A stretch of 64,000 nucleotides of DNA, taken from assembly GCA_016183425.1 (NCBI GenBank), contig JACPEP010000042.1, positions 1-64,000 on the forward strand. Reading direction: 5' to 3'. How positions within the stretch are numbered: the stretch's first letter is position 1; each line of letters begins with the position of its first letter. Position numbers and translations under genes: made by a program. The notes below the pieces were generated by a model. The model made no database searches and was not told where the DNA came from. It worked only from the letters and a program-made list of their open reading frames with translations. This DNA comes from Chloroflexota bacterium (GTDB taxonomy: Bacteria; Chloroflexota; Dehalococcoidia; JACPEP01). This document shows, in pieces, positions 15,126 to 34,238 of the stretch.

Positions 15126-16703
15126 TTACAGTTTCACCACCTTGACGGCATAGACGTCCGGGATATTTAGGATGCGCTGGCACTGTTCGGCGCCCACGGG
15201 CTCGTCCAGCCCAAGCACCATAAGGGCTTGGCCCCGTGCTTCACGCCGCCCCACCTGCATGAAGCTGATGTTGATATCGGCGTTGCCCAGGATATTGCCC
15301 ACTGCTCCAATAAGGCCGGGACGGTCTCGATGGTCGCTGACCAGGAAGTAGCCCTGGGTAGGATAGACGTCCAGCCAGTAGCCGTTTATCATCACGATGT
15401 GAGGCTCGCCCCGCATCTGCGTCCCCGCGACTTGGGTCGTTCCGGTAGGTGTAGTTATCTCCACTGTGATGAGGTTCCCGTAATTCTCGCAGACGGTATC
15501 CTTGTGCTCGGTGATTTTCAGCCCCCGCCGTGATGCTACCAGGTTGACGTTGACGATGTTAACCCGGTCTTCGCTCACCGACTCCAGGAGCCCTCCCAGA
15601 AGGGTTGCCTTGAGGGGAGTGGTGTCGTAGCTTGCGATTTCTCCATTGTAGGAGATCCGAATGCTACCCACCCCCCCTGCCAGTTGCATGGCCATCCGGC
15701 CCACCACCGAGCTCAATCTAAGGAAGGGGGCGAAGATAGACATCACCTCGGGAGAGATAAGGGGAGCATTGACGGCGTATGGTGCCGCCATGCCCTTGAG
15801 AACGGCCAGTATCTGGTGGGCCACATCCACTGCCACCGTTGTCTGGGCTTCGGCGGTAGAGGCCCCCAAATGGGGCGTAACAATCGCCTTATTGCTCTTA
15901 AGGAGGATATTATCCACTGCCGGCTCCTGGCTAAAGACATCTATAGCCGCGCCGGCCACCCGCCCCTCCTCCAGGGCCCGATATAGAGCTTCTTCGTCGA
16001 TGATGCCACCCCGAGCGGTGTTCATGATACGCACCGCAGGCTTAACCAGGGTCAGTTCCCGCTCCCCGATGATGCCTTTGGTAGCGGAGGTGAGAGTGGT
16101 GTGTACAGAGATGAAATCGGCTCTAGCGAGAAGTGTCTCCAAGGACACCATTTCCACCCCCAGCTTATGGGCATAATCTTCTGAAACAAAGGGGTCATAG
16201 GCGATGACGCTCATCTCCAATCCCTGAGCCCGACGTGTCACCAGGGTACCCACCTGGCCCAAGCCGACGATGCCCAGGACCTTGTTCCTAACCTCCAGAC
16301 CCACGAACTCACTGCGTCGCCACTGTCCACCTTTAAGGCTAGCGTGAGCCTGGGGAATGTTTCGGCACGAGGCGAGCATTAGAGCGATGGTATGCTCAGC
16401 GGCGGAGACAATGTTCCCCGTGGGGGCGTTGACCACCACGATGCCCCGATTGGTGGCCGCCTCCACATCTATGTTGTCCACCCCCACGCCTGCCCGGCCG
16501 ATGACTTGGAGACGCTGACCAGCTTCGATGACCTGAGCGGTGACCTTCGTCTCGCTCCTTACCGCCAGAGCATCGTAGTCACCGATGTCGGTCAGTAGCT
16601 CCGGCCCCTTCAGACCGAGCCGGACGTCTACCTCCGCTTCCTGCCTCAGAACATCTATGCCTTCTTCCGCCAGCGGGTCTGTAATCAGGATTTTGGCTTT
16701 CAT
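15126..16703 (-). CDS. serA: D-3-phosphoglycerate dehydrogenase SerA
   Basis: This catalyses the first step of serine synthesis, 3-phosphoglycerate to 3-phosphohydroxypyruvate with NAD+. The 525-aa type I form has a substrate domain, the NAD-binding GIVGLGQVG, catalytic NTARGGIIDEEAL and TPHLGASTAEAQ (histidine), the intervening allosteric domain, and a C-terminal ACT domain (about 450-525) that usually mediates serine feedback. Directly downstream of a class V aminotransferase on the same strand (20 bp apart), which likely performs the next step. Confidence 0.97.
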   Translation of the reverse strand: MKAKILITDPLAEEGIDVLRQEAEVDVRLGLKGPELLTDIGDYDALAVRSETKVTAQVIEAGQRLQVIGRAGVGVDNIDVEAATNRGIVVVNAPTGNIVSAAEHTIALMLASCRNIPQAHASLKGGQWRRSEFVGLEVRNKVLGIVGLGQVGTLVTRRAQGLEMSVIAYDPFVSEDYAHKLGVEMVSLETLLARADFISVHTTLTSATKGIIGERELTLVKPAVRIMNTARGGIIDEEALYRALEEGRVAGAAIDVFSQEPAVDNILLKSNKAIVTPHLGASTAEAQTTVAVDVAHQILAVLKGMAAPYAVNAPLISPEVMSIFAPFLRLSSVVGRMAMQLAGGVGSIRISYNGEIASYDTTPLKATLLGGLLESVSEDRVNIVNVNLVASRRGLKITEHKDTVCENYGNLITVEITTPTGTTQVAGTQMRGEPHIVMINGYWLDVYPTQGYFLVSDHRDRPGLIGAVGNILGNADINISFMQVGRREARGQALMVLGLDEPVGAEQCQRILNIPDVYAVKVVKL

Positions 16704-16723
16704 GGGTGTTACCTTTTTTGCCG

Positions 16724-17830
16724 CTAACTGGAGGCGGCTACCCTGGTTGGGGTAAAGCCTACCTGGGGCAAAGCCGCCGCCAGTGCCTCCATCACCCGTT
16801 GAATGTTCTCTTCGCTCACCCAGCCCAGATGGCCGATGCGAAAGATGCGGCCCACCAGCTTGCCTTGACCCTCCGCCAGCACCACCTGGTACTCTTTTTC
16901 AAGGAGACGACGCAGGTCATCCCCATTCACCCCGGTCGGTGCGTTAATGGCAGTGACAGTATTAGAGGCGTAAGCTTCGTCGGCGAAGAGGGTGAGGCCC
17001 AGGGATTTCACACCTTCTCGGGCGGTTCGGCCCACGCGAGCGTGGCGTGCAAAGATATTAGGCATACCCTCTTGGGCCATCATCTCCAGAGCTGCCAGAA
17101 GGGCATAGCAAAGGGAGACCGCCGGCGTCCAGGGCGTCTGCCCCTTAGCGGCATACTGCTTGGCAGCGTTAAAATCCCAGTAAAAACGGGGCATTTTGGC
17201 TTGAGATACTGCCTGCCACCCCCGTTCATTAATGCCGATCATGGCCAGGCCAGGGGGTATCATCCATCCCTTTTGAGAGCAGTTAACCACCACATCACAC
17301 CCCCAGGCGTCCATAGGCAGGTCGACGCAGCCCAGGCTGCTGATGGCGTCCACTAGTAGTAGCTTGTCGAATTCCTTGACCACGGCGGAGATGGATTGCA
17401 GATCGTTGGTGATGCCCGTAGAGGTCTCATTGTGGGTTACCAATACCCCTTTGACATCGGGGTTCTCGTTTAGGGCTTGGCGCACCCCTTCTGGGTCTAC
17501 CGCCGCGCCCCAGGGAAAGTTCAGCCGCTGCACCTGAGCGCCAAAGACCTGGGTGATGGCGGCGAAGCGGTCGCCGAAAGCGCCATTGGAAACCGCGAGC
17601 ACTTTGTCACCAGGAGAGAAGCAGTTGGCCACCGCCGCTTCCAGGCCGCCAGTGCCGGAGCCAGTGAGCAATAAGACATCGCCCTTAGTTTGGAAGAAAT
17701 CCTTCAGTCGGGCCGTTATCTCCGTAAATATTTGGCTGAACTCGCGGCCCCGGTGGTTTATCATTTGTTTGGTCATCGCCTCCAACACCGCTGGCGGACA
17801 GGGCGTTGGGCCAGGAATGCGCAGTTCCAT
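16724..17830 (-). CDS. Class V aminotransferase (serine-pyruvate/phosphoserine type)
   Basis: A 368-aa PLP enzyme similar to alanine-glyoxylate and serine-pyruvate aminotransferases. It shows IPGPTPCPP at the N-terminus, LTGSGTGGLEAA for cofactor phosphate, LVDAISSLG, and the PLP lysine in NCSQKGWMIPPG. It lies just upstream of serA in the same direction, so it most likely supplies phosphoserine from phosphohydroxypyruvate in place of SerC, an arrangement known from other anaerobes. An alternative is glyoxylate or alanine transamination. Confidence 0.85.
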   Translation of the reverse strand: MELRIPGPTPCPPAVLEAMTKQMINHRGREFSQIFTEITARLKDFFQTKGDVLLLTGSGTGGLEAAVANCFSPGDKVLAVSNGAFGDRFAAITQVFGAQVQRLNFPWGAAVDPEGVRQALNENPDVKGVLVTHNETSTGITNDLQSISAVVKEFDKLLLVDAISSLGCVDLPMDAWGCDVVVNCSQKGWMIPPGLAMIGINERGWQAVSQAKMPRFYWDFNAAKQYAAKGQTPWTPAVSLCYALLAALEMMAQEGMPNIFARHARVGRTAREGVKSLGLTLFADEAYASNTVTAINAPTGVNGDDLRRLLEKEYQVVLAEGQGKLVGRIFRIGHLGWVSEENIQRVMEALAAALPQVGFTPTRVAASS

Positions 17831-26613: not shown

Positions 26614-28659
26614 CTAACGAGCGTGGGCTTTACTGACCGCGAACTCTCGGCCCTCTTTGTGGCAAACGGCACATGTTTCTACCATCTGAGGCGTGGTCTG
26701 CAAGAAGGCATGGCCCTTGGCCGCCTTGTTGTCGTGGCAGGCGAGACAAGCGGCCTGGATGGGCGGAATGGTCTCTAGCACCTTGCCCTTCTGCGTTATG
26801 ACCGTAGGCTTCGCCCCTACCTGCATGTAGTTAATGAGCTGAGAGCCCGGGATGTGGCACTTCTCGCAGTTGCGCCGGTCGCCGGGGAACCTCACCTCGG
26901 AGAAGTCGAAGGCACGCCCACCAGCACCGTAGACGATGAAGGGCTCCTCTCCTTCCTCGCCGGTGTGGATGCGGTGGATGAGCCTCTTGTACTGGACAGA
27001 GACAGGGGGCATCTGGCCCTCTGGGCGAGCCGCTTCATCGGTGCGGTTGGGGTTGTGACAAAGGACACAGTACTCGGTGTTGCGGCGGCTGCCGCCATGA
27101 AGGGATATCCCCGCCGGATCTCCCAGGCTCTCGTGGCACTGGTTGCAGTTTTCCCGCTTGACGATGGCCTTGCGGGGCATGGGAATGGCATCGGTGACGG
27201 CGGCATAGATCACTTTGTTAAAGCCGGCATCCCTTACTGCCAGGGGTTGGCCCCTAGGCCCCTGAATAGTTTGCTCCAGATAGCCCTCTACACCCACGGC
27301 GTAAGTGCCGGAGGCGCTCTCGGGTATCTTCTGGGTAAAGGTGTAGCTGTAGTGACCGCCACCCAAGCTGACAGCGGTGGTGACGACCTCTTGCCACCGC
27401 TCTTGATAGTCGGTAGTGGGGCCAGCCAGGAGCAAAGCAAAGCGGGTCATCTCCGAGGGGGCAATGAAGTTGCCGGCCTTGTCTTGGATGTGGAATTGGA
27501 CGGTGGGATTCTGACCGGGCTTGGTGTTGCTGACATTCATCAGTGTAAATTCTATGCCCCGAAGTTGCTGGGAGCGGGTAGGCAGAAGGTGGGCTCCTGG
27601 TATGGAGAGGTCGAACTCCTTGACCATAGTACTGGTATGGCAATTCTTGCAGGTGGCGTTGGTCTGTACCCCTCCCCCGTGGTTCTGGCCCGTCAGAGGA
27701 TTAACCTTGTCATGGCAGGCGGTACAGGCGGCGGCATTAGGGGCATTCTTCCAGTTGTCAGACTGGGCCGCCCCCGTGTGGCAGGTGGTGCAGTTGCGTA
27801 CGTCCTGGGGCCAGGCAATGTCGGAGAAGTCGAAGACGTTCTGGGCATTGCCAACGATAAAGTAGGGTTTCCCTTCTTTAACGCTGGGCAGGTTCTCGCC
27901 CCGGTGGATCTTGTGGATCATGACCTTGAAATCCGGGGTATTTCCCGACTCCGGATCCACGTTCTGGGGGGTGTGGCAGAGGACGCAGAGCCGGGTGTCT
28001 CGGCGCGAGCCGCCGTGGAGTGCCAGGGGATCGTGACAGCGGTTGCAGTTCTCGGTCTTGACGATCTCCCTGGTGAGGGGCAAAGGGCCACCGGCGGGCA
28101 CAAAGTAGAAGACATCGTTGCCCGCCCACTTGCGGGTGTCCCTAGTGGCCTGGCCTCCCACAGCGTGGCTAGCGTTGCGGGGGAAGTCATCGGGAAGGGC
28201 GTTATTGAAGGTATAGGTATGGACGCCATTCCCCAAGCCGACGAAGACGCCTCCTTGATCCATGGCCGACAGGGGCTGGGTGACGCTGGCCAAAAGGGGC
28301 TGCTTGGTCTCCCCCTTGAAGGTAAAGGGACGTCCGGCGACGGTGCCCACAATATAGTTCACGTACTGGGTAAGGCCCGTAGTGGCATCCTGGTCAATGC
28401 GGGCGATGGTGAAGCGGGGGGTGCCATCCAGGTCGCTTATCTGCAACCCCACCCCCTTGTCGTCGCTGATTTTGAAAGTGACTACCGGCCTGCGATCGCC
28501 CCCGACTTCCACCTTCGTTATCTGGATCTTCAACCCCGGGCCGGGCGAGCCTCCGTCTACCAGGGCCCGCACCTGGTCCTGCAAACCGAACAAGGCTAAT
28601 AAAACAAGGGCGGTTACAGACAAGACAACAGCAAACAGTGCTTTTTTACGCCTCACCAT
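26614..28659 (-). CDS. Decaheme c-type cytochrome, OmcA/MtrC family
   Basis: A 681-aa exported multiheme protein. I count ten CxxCH motifs in two clusters of five: CNRCH, CVLCH, CTTCH, CTACH, CKNCH, then CNQCH, CVLCH, CEKCH, CLACH, CAVCH. The clusters alternate with beta-rich domains, the OmcA/MtrC layout. ALHGGSRRDT and SLHGGSRRNT are repeat hallmarks. An uncleaved or cleavable N-terminal helix (VRRKKALFAVVLSVTALVLLALFG) exports and anchors it. The ATG at 28659 follows GAAGGAG. Such proteins pass electrons to extracellular acceptors. No porin or other cytochrome gene is adjacent. Confidence 0.95.
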   Translation of the reverse strand: MVRRKKALFAVVLSVTALVLLALFGLQDQVRALVDGGSPGPGLKIQITKVEVGGDRRPVVTFKISDDKGVGLQISDLDGTPRFTIARIDQDATTGLTQYVNYIVGTVAGRPFTFKGETKQPLLASVTQPLSAMDQGGVFVGLGNGVHTYTFNNALPDDFPRNASHAVGGQATRDTRKWAGNDVFYFVPAGGPLPLTREIVKTENCNRCHDPLALHGGSRRDTRLCVLCHTPQNVDPESGNTPDFKVMIHKIHRGENLPSVKEGKPYFIVGNAQNVFDFSDIAWPQDVRNCTTCHTGAAQSDNWKNAPNAAACTACHDKVNPLTGQNHGGGVQTNATCKNCHTSTMVKEFDLSIPGAHLLPTRSQQLRGIEFTLMNVSNTKPGQNPTVQFHIQDKAGNFIAPSEMTRFALLLAGPTTDYQERWQEVVTTAVSLGGGHYSYTFTQKIPESASGTYAVGVEGYLEQTIQGPRGQPLAVRDAGFNKVIYAAVTDAIPMPRKAIVKRENCNQCHESLGDPAGISLHGGSRRNTEYCVLCHNPNRTDEAARPEGQMPPVSVQYKRLIHRIHTGEEGEEPFIVYGAGGRAFDFSEVRFPGDRRNCEKCHIPGSQLINYMQVGAKPTVITQKGKVLETIPPIQAACLACHDNKAAKGHAFLQTTPQMVETCAVCHKEGREFAVSKAHAR

Positions 28660-28675
28660 GGCCAACTCCTTCTCT

Positions 28676-28695
28676 GTAACTATAGCGATAGTTAC
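28676..28695 (-). promoter_or_regulatory. Inverted repeat just upstream of the cytochrome ribosome site
   Basis: GTAACTAT (28676-28683) and ATAGTTAC (28688-28695) are perfect 8-bp arms with a 4-nt centre. They lie directly upstream of the GAAGGAG ribosome site (28666-28672), so they could be a DNA operator or an mRNA hairpin that affects translation. Confidence 0.45.
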
Positions 28696-28752
28696 GGTCA
28701 CCTCTTTGCCCAAGGCCAGCGCTCATAGAAATACACTATTTCGAATTACCAT

Positions 28753-29109: not shown

Positions 29110-29829
29110 ATGGAGTTGGATTCTCAGGGGCTGAATGGGCTACAGGGAAGTATTGGCGTCACCTTCGCCGATCCTTCGTTGCTCTTACAGTCGCTGGTTC
29201 ACCGCTCCTATCTGAATGAGAACCCTCGCTTATCTCTTCTTGCCAACGGGCGTCTAGAGTTTCTGGGCGATGCTGTGCTGGGTCTAATAATTGGCGAGGA
29301 GCTTTACCGCCGTTTTCCCTATTATGGGGAGGGAGAGCTAACTCGTCTGCGATCGGTGCTGGTGCGACGGGAGACCCTGGCTAACTGGGCGGGTGCTCTG
29401 GGATTGGGGGAACAATTGTACCTGGGCCACGGCGAGGAGGCTAAAGGGGGAAGGAGAAACCAGCGCAACTTGGCCGGTGTTCTGGAAGCAGTGATCGGGG
29501 CCATTTTCGTAGATGCCGGCTTGGCATCGGCCCGGAACTTTGTTCTAAAGGTGGCGGGCGCGGAGCTCAAGGCGGTAGGTGCGACATGGTTGGATTACAA
29601 ATCTGCCCTTCAGGAGTACACCCAAAGGCTGCACCATACTATGCCCCGATATCGGGTGGTAACGGCGACCGGTCCTGAGCACGAGAAAGAATTTCAGGTG
29701 GAGGTGGTAGTAGATGGAGTGGTATGGGGGAGGGGGGTGGGGCGGAGCAAACGCGACGCGGAAATGGAGGCGGCCCGAGTGGCTCTGAGCAGGTGGGGAA
29801 ACGGTGTAACGGGAAGTACTCAGACTTGA
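29110..29829 (+). CDS. rnc: Ribonuclease III
   Basis: A 239-aa dsRNA endonuclease that processes rRNA precursors. The nuclease domain has the signature NGRLEFLGDAVLGL and LEAVIGAIFVDAG. The dsRNA-binding domain follows from about residue 165 (DYKSALQEYTQ to RDAEMEAARVAL). The second metal-binding aspartate (usually DTxEA) is Gly here (AGVLEA), while the glutamate remains. The ATG follows AGGAGAAGG. First gene of an rnc-selenoprotein-smc run. Confidence 0.94.
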   Translation: MELDSQGLNGLQGSIGVTFADPSLLLQSLVHRSYLNENPRLSLLANGRLEFLGDAVLGLIIGEELYRRFPYYGEGELTRLRSVLVRRETLANWAGALGLGEQLYLGHGEEAKGGRRNQRNLAGVLEAVIGAIFVDAGLASARNFVLKVAGAELKAVGATWLDYKSALQEYTQRLHHTMPRYRVVTATGPEHEKEFQVEVVVDGVVWGRGVGRSKRDAEMEAARVALSRWGNGVTGSTQT

Positions 29830-29861: not shown

Positions 29862-30608
29862 ATGCCGGTTGACTATATAGCCAAAACCAGAGGCGCTTAC
29901 CCCGACCAGCCACCTTATCAATGGTCGAAGTTCGACACCAGTCCCTGGACGCCCATGACGAAGCCCCTTTCCCGATGTCGCATCTCTATCGTTAGCTCAG
30001 GGGGAGTCCATCTAAAGTCCCAGCCCCCCTTTGACGGAGAAAAGAACGACCTAACTTTCCGAGAGATACCCAAGAATGTGGATGTAGCGTCCTTAATGAT
30101 TACCCACAATCACTACGACCATAGAGACGCCGACCGCGACGTTAACTGTATTTTTCCCATCGAGCGTTTTCGTGATCTGGAGAAGGAGGGGTTTATCGGG
30201 GAGTTGGCCCCGACCAGCTACACTCTTATGGGGCGCATATTTCGTCGTACCGCCTTGCTGCAGGAGATGGCCCCTTATCTCTTGCGTCGCCTGAAAGAAG
30301 AGGCTGTGGATGCTCTCTTTATGGTGCCCGCCTGACCGCTATGTCATCAGTCCGTGGGACTGCTCGCTCGTCAGGTGGAAGAGGGAGGTATTCCTACCGT
30401 TGCCATGACCTCGGCCCTGGATATTACATCCCTGGTGAAGCCTCCTCGCTCCGTTTTTCTGGATTTTCCCCTGGGGCGCCAAACCGGAAAACCTTTCGAC
30501 CGGGAGCTACAATTGAGCATCGTCAAAGCTGCCCTGAGGGCTCTGGAGACCATAATCGAGCCCGGCGGCATCCTCCAACTGCCTTATGAGTGGGGGGAGC
30601 CATGGTAG
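29862..30608 (+). CDS. PrdB/GrdB-family selenoprotein (UGA-encoded selenocysteine)
   Basis: A 248-aa protein of the glycine/betaine/sarcosine/D-proline reductase selenoprotein B family. An in-frame TGA at 30333-30335 interrupts the frame, and the same frame continues without a break: DALFMVPA-U-PLCHQSVGLLARQ, then EEGGIPTV and VKPPRSVFLDFPLG to the TAG at 30608. PrdB has U-x2-CH(R/Q)S at the same place. Upstream parts also match (NCIFPIERFRDLEKEGFIG, LAPTSYTLMGR). Residue 158 would be selenocysteine. The ATG at 29862 follows AGGATAGGAG. No prdA/grd partner genes are nearby, so the substrate is unknown. SelA/B/C genes must lie outside the window. Confidence 0.88.
30333..30362 (+). promoter_or_regulatory. 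UGA selenocysteine codon with bacterial SECIS-like hairpin
   Basis: Downstream of TGA 30333-30335, CAGTCC (30348-30353) and GGACTG (30357-30362) form a perfect 6-bp stem around a GTG loop. The loop lies 19-21 nt after the UGA, within the distance usual for bacterial SECIS elements, and has a GU in the loop. It is simple and short, so only its position and loop support the call. Confidence 0.6.
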
Positions 30609-30629: not shown

Positions 30630-33600
30630 ATGGGAGAGGGAGCGGTGTTTCTTAGGCGCCTGGAGCTGAAAGGCTTCAAGAGCTTCGCCCGTCCTACCCA
30701 GTTTGAGTTTGATCGGGGCGTTACCGTCATCGTCGGCCCTAATGGCAGCGGCAAGAGCAACGTTGCCGATGGTCTCCGCTGGGTGTTGGGCGAACAAAAC
30801 GCCCGTAACCTCCGCGCTCGACGCATGGAAGACATCATTTTTACGGGTAGCTCTCAGCGTACTCCCTTGGGCATGGCCGAGGCCTCTCTAGACTTAGATA
30901 ACTCGCGGGAAGAGCTTCCTCTGGAGTTTACCGATGTCACCCTTACCCGACGGGCTTATCGCTCGGGGGAGAGCGAGTACTTTATTAACCGTGGCCGTAC
31001 CCGATGGCGGGATGTGGCAGAGCTCCTACTAAAAGCCAACGTTGGCCAAAACGGGTACACCATCATCGGTCAAGGGGTCATCGAGAATTTTATTAATCTG
31101 CGCCCGGAGGAGAAGCGGCTGTGGCTAGAGGAGGCTGCCGATGTTAAGCGTCATCGGATGCGTCTTGCCGAGGCGCGCGAAAGGCTTCGCTCTACGGAAA
31201 GTAATTTGGAACGAGTAAGCATCATCGTTTCCGAAATAGCTCCTCGCTTGAACCATCTTCAGCACCAGGCGAGGCAGGCTCAGGAATACCAGCGTCTATC
31301 TGCGGATCTAGAACAGAGCCTCAAGCTGTGGTATGGATACCAGTGGTGGGTGGCCCAACGGGCCCTGCTGCGCGCTGAATCCACCCTGGCGGAACGCCGC
31401 CATCAGATAGGCGTCCTCCAGCGGGAGCTGTCTCGCTGTCAGGGAAGGAGGGTTGAGCAACAGCATCTCCTTGAGCAGGCCAAGGGCGAGGCCAGGGAGC
31501 TAGAGGAACGAACGGAATTCCTGGAGAAGAAGCAGCAGCGGCTGGCCCAAAGCACGCTCCTGGATGAAGAGCGCCTACGCTTCAATACTCGCCAGCAGGA
31601 GGAGGCGCAGACAGACCTGGAGCTAGTGGAAGGCCAGATCAAGGGACAAGGGAAGGCTCTTCAGGACCAAGAGCGGCGTTGCCAAGAGGTGGAACAAGAG
31701 CTGGATCAGGCCTCGGGGCTTCTTGCTTTTCAGCAGGGAGGTTTAGAGGAAAGGCGGCGGAGATACCAGGAGCTTTTAAAGAACTTGGACCATCTTAAGG
31801 GAGAGGGACAGGGGCTGGAAAAGGCTCTGGCTGGAGTAGAGGGTCACTTGCGGGAGACGGAGGAAGCTGTAAACTCCCTTCAGCTTCTGAAGGAGGAATG
31901 GCTTAGAAAGAGACAGACCTGGGGTCAGGAGCTGATTGCCCATCGTCACCGTCTGCGCTCCTTGATAGCTCAGGATGGAGAAATAACCTCTCGCCTCAAT
32001 GAGGTGTCGGTGCAAAGAATCTCCCTGGCTAGGGAGAGGGATGAAACAGCGGCTCTGGTGAGGGACAAAGAGATGGGCCTGGCTCTGAAGGAGCGAGAGA
32101 GGGAGACCTTGGGCTTACGCCACGAGCTTTTGGCCCGTATGCGCCAGGAGGGGCTGCCGGCGGCGGCAAGGTCTCTAATTTACACTCAGGAGGCAGGAGA
32201 GGGTATTTTACCCTTTTCTGAGCAGCCGGTGCTTATGGCCCAGGTTTTGGATGTTCCTGCAGGACTGGAAAAGGCTATCGAGGCCGCCTTGTGTGGCCAC
32301 ACTTATGACATTGTCGTCAACAAGCGGGGTGAGGCCGAGGCGGTCATCGACTTTTTGAAGCGTACCGCTGGTGGCAACGCCACCCTTTGGCCCCTGGATA
32401 ACGTTAAAGAGTCCTATAGCCTTAACATTATACGGGAGCCGGGGGTGGTGGGGGTGGCTTCGCGGCTGGTAAAATGCCATTCCCGCTATCGACCAGTGGT
32501 GGATGCTCTCCTGGGCCGAACTATTGTGGTAGACAATCTTGCCGTGGCCAAGCGAGTCGTCCGCCGAGGGATGGGCAATGTGGCTACCTTGGCCGGGGAA
32601 TACCTGGCCCAAGTGGGCACTATCACCGGTGGTCAACCTCCTGAGTGGCAGGGCACGCTAGCTATAGAGGAGGAATGGCGGCAGTTGCCGCAAAGACTGG
32701 TAGCGATAGCCGGGGAGGTGAAAGCCACCGAGTCAGAGCTGTCGGCAGCGAGAGAACTTTTTAGAGAGAAGGCAGAGATGTTGGCCCAGAGGGAGGACGA
32801 AGAGCAGCATTTGCGCCAGGAGGCACAGAGGGTAGCCCAGGCCTTGACCCGACACCGTCTCACCTGGCAGGGATGGCGGGGGGAGAGACGGGGGCATGTG
32901 AGAGCCACGAAGGCTGCTTTGGGAGAAGAGGGCGCTTTGAGACAACGCCTGGCGGCCCTCCGGGAAGAGAGGGAACGCCTTCTAAATGCCAAAGCGGTAC
33001 TGGAAGGGGAAATATCGCCTCTTTTAGCTCAGGTTCGAGAGGGGGAGGGGGAATTGGCACTTCTTGGCCAGCGGGCAGCGGAGATGGCTTCCCGAGATAC
33101 CTCTCTTCGTCAGGAAAAGGAGGTTTTGGCCGCTGGACGTCGCGCTGCGGAGTCGGCTTTGAATCGGCTCGAAGAACGGCGGCAGGCGCTCCGAGATCGC
33201 CTCGGCCGCCTCACAGAGGAAGAAAAGTCCTTACGTTTTTGCCTTGCTGAGGCCAAGAGTGAGGCAGATCAAGGGGCGAATCAGGTGCGAGTTGTAGCGG
33301 AACAACTGGCTGCCGCCAAAAGAAGGGGGGAGGACATCCGAGAAGAGGAGGAGGCAGCGGCAACACAAGAGGCTCAGTTACGTGCTCGCCTATCGGAACG
33401 GGAACGCTTGCAGGCCGTCTCCCAGGCGGAGGTCAGCCATCGTCGAGAGGGGTTGGAGAAGCTGAGAGATACCATGGAGCAGGAGGGTGTTATCGCTCTG
33501 GAAGGGGAGCTGTGGCAAGGGGAACCGGAAGCCCTGAAAGCCACGGTAGACCGTCTTAAGGCACGCCTACGAGCGCTGGGGCCAGTAAACCTGGAGGCGT

Positions 33601-34238
33601 TGTCCGACTACGAGGAGACCCATTCCCGTTACCAGTTCCTCACCTCCCAGGTGCGCGACCTGCGGGAGGCAAGCAAATCTCTTCAGGGAGCGATAGCTGA
33701 GCTGGAGGGTATTATTCATCACAACTTTCAGACCACCTTTGAGACGGTATCTCACCAGTTCAAGAGCTACTTTACCCACTTCTTTGGCGGCGGAACGGCT
33801 AAACTGGTCCGCATCCCTCCCTCCAATGGGAACGAAATGGGTGTGGAACTGGTCGCCCAGCCGCCGGGAAAGCGACTCCAAAACCTTTCCCTTCTTTCCG
33901 GGGGAGAACGGGCCCTGACGGCAGTTGCCTTCCTTTTTGCCATTTTGGAGGCCAACCCATCCCCCTTCTGCGTCCTGGACGAGGTGGACGCCAGCCTGGA
34001 TGAGACCAATAGTATCCGCTTCTCTCAGGCATTGGCAAAGCTCTGCCAAAGAACCCAGTTTATCGTCATCACCCACAATCGAAACACCATGCAGGTGGCC
34101 AACACCATCTACGGCGTTTCTATGGGCGAGGACAATGTCTCCAGAGTCCTCTCCCTTAGATTGGAGGGCGACTCCCCATCCCTCCTCGGCAATGAGGTAC
34201 CCCCTTATGTCCTGGGGGAAGGCAGAAACGGCGAGTAA
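30630..34238 (+). CDS. smc: Chromosome segregation protein SMC
   Basis: A 1202-aa ATPase that loops and compacts DNA. The N-terminal head has FKSFARPTQFEF and Walker A GPNGSGKSN. Two long coiled coils (about 170-500 and 670-1000) flank a hinge with LDVPAGLEKAIEAALCGH. The C-terminal head has the signature LLSGGERALTAVA, Walker B FCVLDEVDASLDETN and the D-loop. The ATG at 30630 follows GGGAGGGAAG. It is 21 bp after the selenoprotein gene; ftsY does not follow, unlike the usual rnc-smc-ftsY order. Confidence 0.98.
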   Translation: MGEGAVFLRRLELKGFKSFARPTQFEFDRGVTVIVGPNGSGKSNVADGLRWVLGEQNARNLRARRMEDIIFTGSSQRTPLGMAEASLDLDNSREELPLEFTDVTLTRRAYRSGESEYFINRGRTRWRDVAELLLKANVGQNGYTIIGQGVIENFINLRPEEKRLWLEEAADVKRHRMRLAEARERLRSTESNLERVSIIVSEIAPRLNHLQHQARQAQEYQRLSADLEQSLKLWYGYQWWVAQRALLRAESTLAERRHQIGVLQRELSRCQGRRVEQQHLLEQAKGEARELEERTEFLEKKQQRLAQSTLLDEERLRFNTRQQEEAQTDLELVEGQIKGQGKALQDQERRCQEVEQELDQASGLLAFQQGGLEERRRRYQELLKNLDHLKGEGQGLEKALAGVEGHLRETEEAVNSLQLLKEEWLRKRQTWGQELIAHRHRLRSLIAQDGEITSRLNEVSVQRISLARERDETAALVRDKEMGLALKERERETLGLRHELLARMRQEGLPAAARSLIYTQEAGEGILPFSEQPVLMAQVLDVPAGLEKAIEAALCGHTYDIVVNKRGEAEAVIDFLKRTAGGNATLWPLDNVKESYSLNIIREPGVVGVASRLVKCHSRYRPVVDALLGRTIVVDNLAVAKRVVRRGMGNVATLAGEYLAQVGTITGGQPPEWQGTLAIEEEWRQLPQRLVAIAGEVKATESELSAARELFREKAEMLAQREDEEQHLRQEAQRVAQALTRHRLTWQGWRGERRGHVRATKAALGEEGALRQRLAALREERERLLNAKAVLEGEISPLLAQVREGEGELALLGQRAAEMASRDTSLRQEKEVLAAGRRAAESALNRLEERRQALRDRLGRLTEEEKSLRFCLAEAKSEADQGANQVRVVAEQLAAAKRRGEDIREEEEAAATQEAQLRARLSERERLQAVSQAEVSHRREGLEKLRDTMEQEGVIALEGELWQGEPEALKATVDRLKARLRALGPVNLEALSDYEETHSRYQFLTSQVRDLREASKSLQGAIAELEGIIHHNFQTTFETVSHQFKSYFTHFFGGGTAKLVRIPPSNGNEMGVELVAQPPGKRLQNLSLLSGGERALTAVAFLFAILEANPSPFCVLDEVDASLDETNSIRFSQALAKLCQRTQFIVITHNRNTMQVANTIYGVSMGEDNVSRVLSLRLEGDSPSLLGNEVPPYVLGEGRNGE

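Follow-up and report, generated by a model that had tools for sequence, protein, structure and literature searches.

A probable stand-alone selenoprotein of the PrdB/GrdB family, with an in-frame UGA and a SECIS-like hairpin, in a Chloroflexota genome

Introduction

The selenoproteins that most resemble the one discussed here are PrdB, a subunit of D-proline reductase (TIGR04483), and GrdB/GrdF/GrdH, the selenoprotein B of glycine, sarcosine and betaine reductase (PF07355, TIGR01918). According to the available excerpts of two ocean surveys, PrdB-type selenoproteins with a UxxC motif ranked third in abundance among the families of the Sargasso Sea set, with 42 genes (PMC1088965), and the GOS data held 235 Sec forms of PrdB against 110 Cys forms (PMC2398784); in these same excerpts, the 'PrdB' label is applied without a test for a PrdA partner (PMC1088965, PMC2398784). 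The excerpt of the former also defines the bacterial SECIS element as a stem-loop just downstream of the UGA whose small apical loop carries a G (PMC1088965). Glycine reductases (GrdB/GrdE) of Dehalococcoidia have in turn been reported from serpentinite systems (PMC9751293).

This work deals with a gene found in a stretch of 64,000 nucleotides of a Chloroflexota genome (the window, which means the whole stretch analysed), whose product resembles each of these systems without coinciding with PrdB or GrdB. With PrdB it shares its one-domain length, homology over the full length, the UxxCH motif and the in-frame UGA, but it scores below the cut-off of that family, falls in another clade, has no PrdA partner and reads U-P-L-CHQS where PrdB reads U-G-T-CHRS. 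With GrdB, GrdF and GrdH it shares profile positions 205-426, the position of Sec and the offset of the hairpin, whereas it lacks their N-terminal half and an adjoining GrdE gene, and has a Cys at +3 instead of the GTGTRCG arrangement of GrdB. The serpentinite proteins presumably come from the same class, and GrdB and GrdE are present in the genome studied here too; those, however, are complete GrdB/GrdE pairs, as opposed to a short stand-alone protein. For the Sargasso Sea and GOS selenoproteins labelled 'proline reductase PrdB', the excerpts describe features that also apply to it and its homologues: PF07355, UxxC, a Sec form more frequent than the Cys form, and a SECIS whose short apical loop contains a G; no difference from them could be shown (PMC1088965, PMC2398784). 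Given the numbers of PrdB-type UxxC selenoproteins in these excerpts, the family is already known, and the window gene is a new member of what surveys of marine selenoproteomes have called 'PrdB' since 2005. The significance of the results below lies in setting this large PrdB-like group, called 'proline reductase' in the ocean surveys all along, apart from the real D-proline reductase; the reaction of the orphan branch is a testable question.

Results

The gene and its reading frame

The gene lies directly between rnc and smc (Table 1), both outside the system, and its ATG start matches the N-termini of its orthologues. The first-pass annotation, made from the window alone, described a frame broken by one TGA only and flanked by the pattern U-x2-CH(R/Q)S, and both descriptions hold: the translation runs to 248 residues, codon 158 is the single in-frame TGA, the terminal stop is TAG, and the context reads VPA-U-PLCHQSVGL. 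TGA is the normal stop of rnc and of other open reading frames of the window (17 of the 44 long ones mechanically listed end in it), so that recoding at 30333 would be a local event; a change of the genetic code is thereby ruled out. Phage records contained no match to the gene.

In the nearest relative (G026, contig C71, locus L153) the order is rnc, an open reading frame of 350 residues and then the gene, as opposed to the direct rnc and smc flanks seen in the window; by eye, this additional frame looks MetE/UROD-like. Also in the window (26614-28713, minus strand) is a gene for an MtrC/MtrF-type outer-membrane multihaem cytochrome (PF22113).

Table 1. Coordinates of the features discussed. 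Positions without a prefix are those of the window; C and L labels denote contigs and loci.
Feature	Position	Strand	Remarks
Putative PrdB/GrdB-like selenoprotein gene	29862..30608	+	248 codons and TAG stop
UGA codon, presumably read as Sec158	30333..30335	+	TGA at the same column in homologues
Cys161 (TGT), putative resolving thiol of UxxC	30342..30344	+	Cys in 44/52 aligned homologues, Asp in 8/52
SECIS-like hairpin	30348..30362	+	CAGUCC 30348-30353, GUG loop 30354-30356, GGACUG 30357-30362; covariation
rnc (ribonuclease III)	29110..29829	+	Upstream neighbour; stop is a normal TGA
smc	30630..34238	+	Downstream neighbour
serA and aminotransferase gene	15126-17830	-	The pair that adjoins selA in G026
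selD	C34:35317-36237 (L149), same genome		Itself a UGA gene, CAG-U-AAK at the catalytic position; downstream stem-loop
Glycine-reductase-type cluster	C11:1000-20900 (L023), same genome		GrdA, two GrdB, two GrdE/G, component C subunit beta, thioredoxin
Second short PrdB-like UGA gene	C23:26439-27101 (L020), same genome		UPVCNRSGG; TIGR04483 203 bits, above the score of the window gene
U-P-L-D-H-Q-T loci	L074:2952-2996, L076:6481-6525, L079, L118, L127, L133, L134, L139, L142		

Family membership

The read-through protein matches PF07355 (GRDB) with 43.3 bits, above the cut-off of 22, and TIGR01918 with 72.4 bits, above the cut-off of 65.45. Its best NCBIfam match is TIGR04483, i.e., PrdB (E 7e-55), with 186 bits against an equivalog cut-off of 300, and the matches to both TIGR profiles run across the TGA, well beyond what chance would produce. 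The protein thus covers the whole of PrdB, but only the second part of GrdB: full-length GrdB has about 430 residues in two parts and a GrdE neighbour, as opposed to 248 residues here and a grdE on another contig. In a tree of 60 sequences, it falls in a supported set of nine (98/87) with sequences of Chloroflexota, Nitrospinota and Syntrophaceae, far from the PrdA-linked PrdBs of Terrisporobacter and Peptoclostridium, which form a separate clade (100/100). The protein of the relative G108 is identical to that of a named Chloroflexi genome and groups with that of a named Dehalococcoidia, which points to Chloroflexota, and probably Dehalococcoidia, as the host. Of the first proposal, a selenoprotein of the PrdB/GrdB family, the family and the Sec stand, whereas PrdB itself does not, by score and by tree; judged from these sequence comparisons, the protein is a member of the family yet not PrdB proper.

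The AlphaFold model of the protein is confident (pLDDT 96.1). Foldseek found no match to it in the PDB at E <= 0.001, which leaves an Asp/Glu racemase-like fold unsupported, and a phmmer search of the PDB sequences with the protein found no relative.

The UGA in homologues and selection past it

In a collection of contigs, where a single-protein query gave no match and an alignment query recovered the homologues, TGA stands at exactly the same column in every one of the 80 best named homologues. These are spread over Chloroflexota, Nitrospinota, Myxococcota, Thermodesulfobacteriota, Rokubacteria, Binatia, Acidimicrobiia, Gammaproteobacteria, Entotheonella and others, and they are the ones most similar to the query, so that Cys forms are under-sampled among them. 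Two more distant homologues, in a relative of the same class (G117) and in Roseomonas, do have a Cys at this column, which answers the proposed search for Sec or Cys there; Cys forms are altogether rarer than TGA forms, and more distant. Within the class, 85 of 245 genomes gave matches and, among the matches listed, nearly every one has exactly one interrupting TGA; in the 30 homologues examined as loci, the TGA is present without exception and is followed by P/S/W-x-C. Sec158 is likewise invariant over the 52 homologues aligned.

The expectation that family-like sequence continues from the TGA to the true stop was borne out, as each of the seven orthologues compared has a higher amino-acid identity with the window protein downstream of the TGA than upstream. 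In six of them pN/pS is also lower after the TGA, the seventh (G108) having a slightly higher value there (0.362, as opposed to 0.315 before). Sequence divergence of this kind indicates that purifying selection persists downstream of the TGA.

The hairpin after the UGA

The core of the hairpin consists of 6 bp, formed by nucleotides +16-21 and +25-30 from the U of the UGA, around a triloop starting with G and at a fixed offset; further outer pairs are possible (A30346-U30364, G30343-C30367 and U30344-G30366). Just after its UGA, the window gene thus has a stem-loop whose small apical loop includes a G. With random synonymous codons, the peptide QSVGL gives the 6-bp stem in about 8% of cases, so that the hairpin of one gene says little without covariation, and the lone window segment folds no better than its shuffles (z = +1.05), which leaves comparative covariation as the only informative evidence. 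Such covariation is seen in the set of sequences with (Q/R)(S/T/A)xGL, where Ser TCN occurs 78 times with Gly GGA/GGG and four times with GGT, whilst Thr ACN is accompanied by GGT in 15 of 15 cases (Fisher p = 2.5e-14 for the Ser/Thr-Gly association, uncorrected for kinship); the partners are seen as Ser-TCC with Gly-GGA/GGG and as Thr-ACC with Gly-GGT. Similarly, Gln CAG goes with Leu CTG 79 times and with TTG twice, and CAA with TTG in five of five cases (6e-7, inflated by kinship). These p-values are inflated because the sequences are related; even so, the changes run in the direction of compensation at synonymous sites. In addition, 89% of cells are paired, compared to 83% in shuffles and 15-42% when the pairing is slid, and 37 double changes are observed where 15 are expected.

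In this genome, both full GrdB genes carry an unrelated stem, CGUUGC-GGN-GCAACG, at the identical offset after their UGA. The Rfam model SECIS_1 had no match in the genome, and the controls were silent as well.

The Sec machinery and the missing selA

The Sec machinery implied for the host was found in part: the genome has selB, a tRNA-Sec (selC) with UCA anticodon and selD, but neither TIGR00474 nor PF03841 found selA in the 52 contigs of this draft, which is 95.3% complete, and a search for SepSecS, a possible substitute of SelA, was negative too. SelA is above the cut-off in 168 of the 245 genomes of the class, including those of the nearest relatives (G026, G108, G185 and G007), and many of the TGA-bearing relatives possess it. 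Its location varies: in G026 it adjoins serA and an aminotransferase gene, in G108 selB; next to the serA/aminotransferase pair of the window there is no selA, and the spot below serA, at 15126, is occupied by other genes. With 52 contigs and this completeness, an assembly gap is the likeliest reason for its absence.

Partners and other selenoprotein genes

The first reading found no D-proline or glycine reductase partner, and this remains true of the window but not of the genome, where contig C11 carries a complete glycine-reductase set, next to peptide/nickel-type ABC substrate-binding proteins. GrdA of this cluster is a UGA gene with CxxU, and both of its full GrdBs contain a UGA. The window gene is not linked to it, and the only two PF09338-family genes of the genome are of the GrdE/GrdG type, beside grdB. 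Altogether, the genome keeps at least six intact-looking UGA genes, among them a second short PrdB-like one (Table 1).

No PrdA or GrdE gene was detected in the window, nor within up to 6 kb on each side of the 80 homologues, in a search that did detect its positive controls. There is no conserved gene neighbourhood around these 80 genes either: the sole cluster near most of them is the gene's own antisense shadow, and enoyl-CoA hydratase genes occur in the flanks of 13 of the 80 loci.

Discussion

The best reading of these results is that of an orphan one-domain PrdB/GrdB-like Sec oxidoreductase. SelB and tRNA-Sec would decode the UGA at 30333 as Sec, directed by the hairpin, and the product would be a single domain, equivalent to the whole of PrdB or to the C-terminal half of GrdB, working without a pyruvoyl partner of the PrdA/GrdE type. 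The selenolate of Sec158 could then attack the substrate, Cys161 could resolve the Se-substrate or Se-oxidised state so formed as a Se-S bond, and thioredoxin or another dithiol may recycle the protein. Taken jointly, a genuine selenoprotein, its hairpin-directed decoding and the stand-alone one-domain product seem very probable to us on the basis of sequence comparison, with the Sec158/Cys161 mechanism as the inferred part of this reading. Independent tests thus agree that a seemingly broken gene is an intact selenoprotein gene, so that any annotation ending at the TGA would be wrong.

Could the stop be real instead? A pseudogene, or a TGY codon for Cys that sequencing turned into TGA, would need one base only, TGA being that close to TGC and TGT, and some distant homologues do have Cys; but this idea is refuted by the 80 TGAs in 80 named homologues unless all were misread, and the purifying selection past the TGA and the hairpin covariation over synonymous sites speak against it as well, so that we give it practically no credence. 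A recent relic, where the strain has lost selA and the UGA now terminates a truncated product of 157 residues, would agree with the failure of both selA profiles, with the lack of SepSecS and with the serA locus devoid of selA. We nevertheless regard it as very improbable, since selB, selC, a Sec-type selD and the other intact-looking UGA genes are retained, the draft is not complete, and selA lies in different places in different relatives.

The two remaining alternatives accept the Sec and concern the function. D-proline reductase PrdB proper, acting with a PrdA encoded elsewhere, has on its side the top NCBIfam match, the similar length and the UxxCH motif common to true PrdB; it is hardly credible, however, in view of the score far below the cut-off, the different residues within the motif, the distant clade of the PrdA-linked PrdBs and a genome whose PF09338-family genes are both accounted for by GrdE/GrdG, and D-proline is accordingly an unlikely substrate. 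Somewhat less remote, though still improbable, is a spare component-B subunit serving the GrdA/GrdE/GrdC of the C11 cluster: the cluster exists, has its own thioredoxin, and the window protein aligns to the C-terminal half of GrdB. Against this stand the lack of the N-terminal half, the absence of linkage to a cluster that already has two full GrdBs, and the homologues in many phyla with no GrdE or PrdA gene nearby.

The orphan oxidoreductase is therefore the reading kept here, and a wider version of it has, in our opinion, about even chances: the window protein might belong to a widespread orphan branch (U-P-x-C/D-H-Q-S/T-V) that is neither proline nor glycine reductase, a Sec enzyme without pyruvoyl partner, for whose fold the PDB offers no confident counterpart (E <= 0.001). 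As part of this same evenly balanced reading, Sec would be kept almost invariably whilst the resolving Cys would be dispensable. In the U-P-L-D-H-Q-T sequences (Table 1), an Asp replaces the Cys of UxxC, so that a cycle resolved by Cys would not be universal, and both the Sec and the hairpin are retained.
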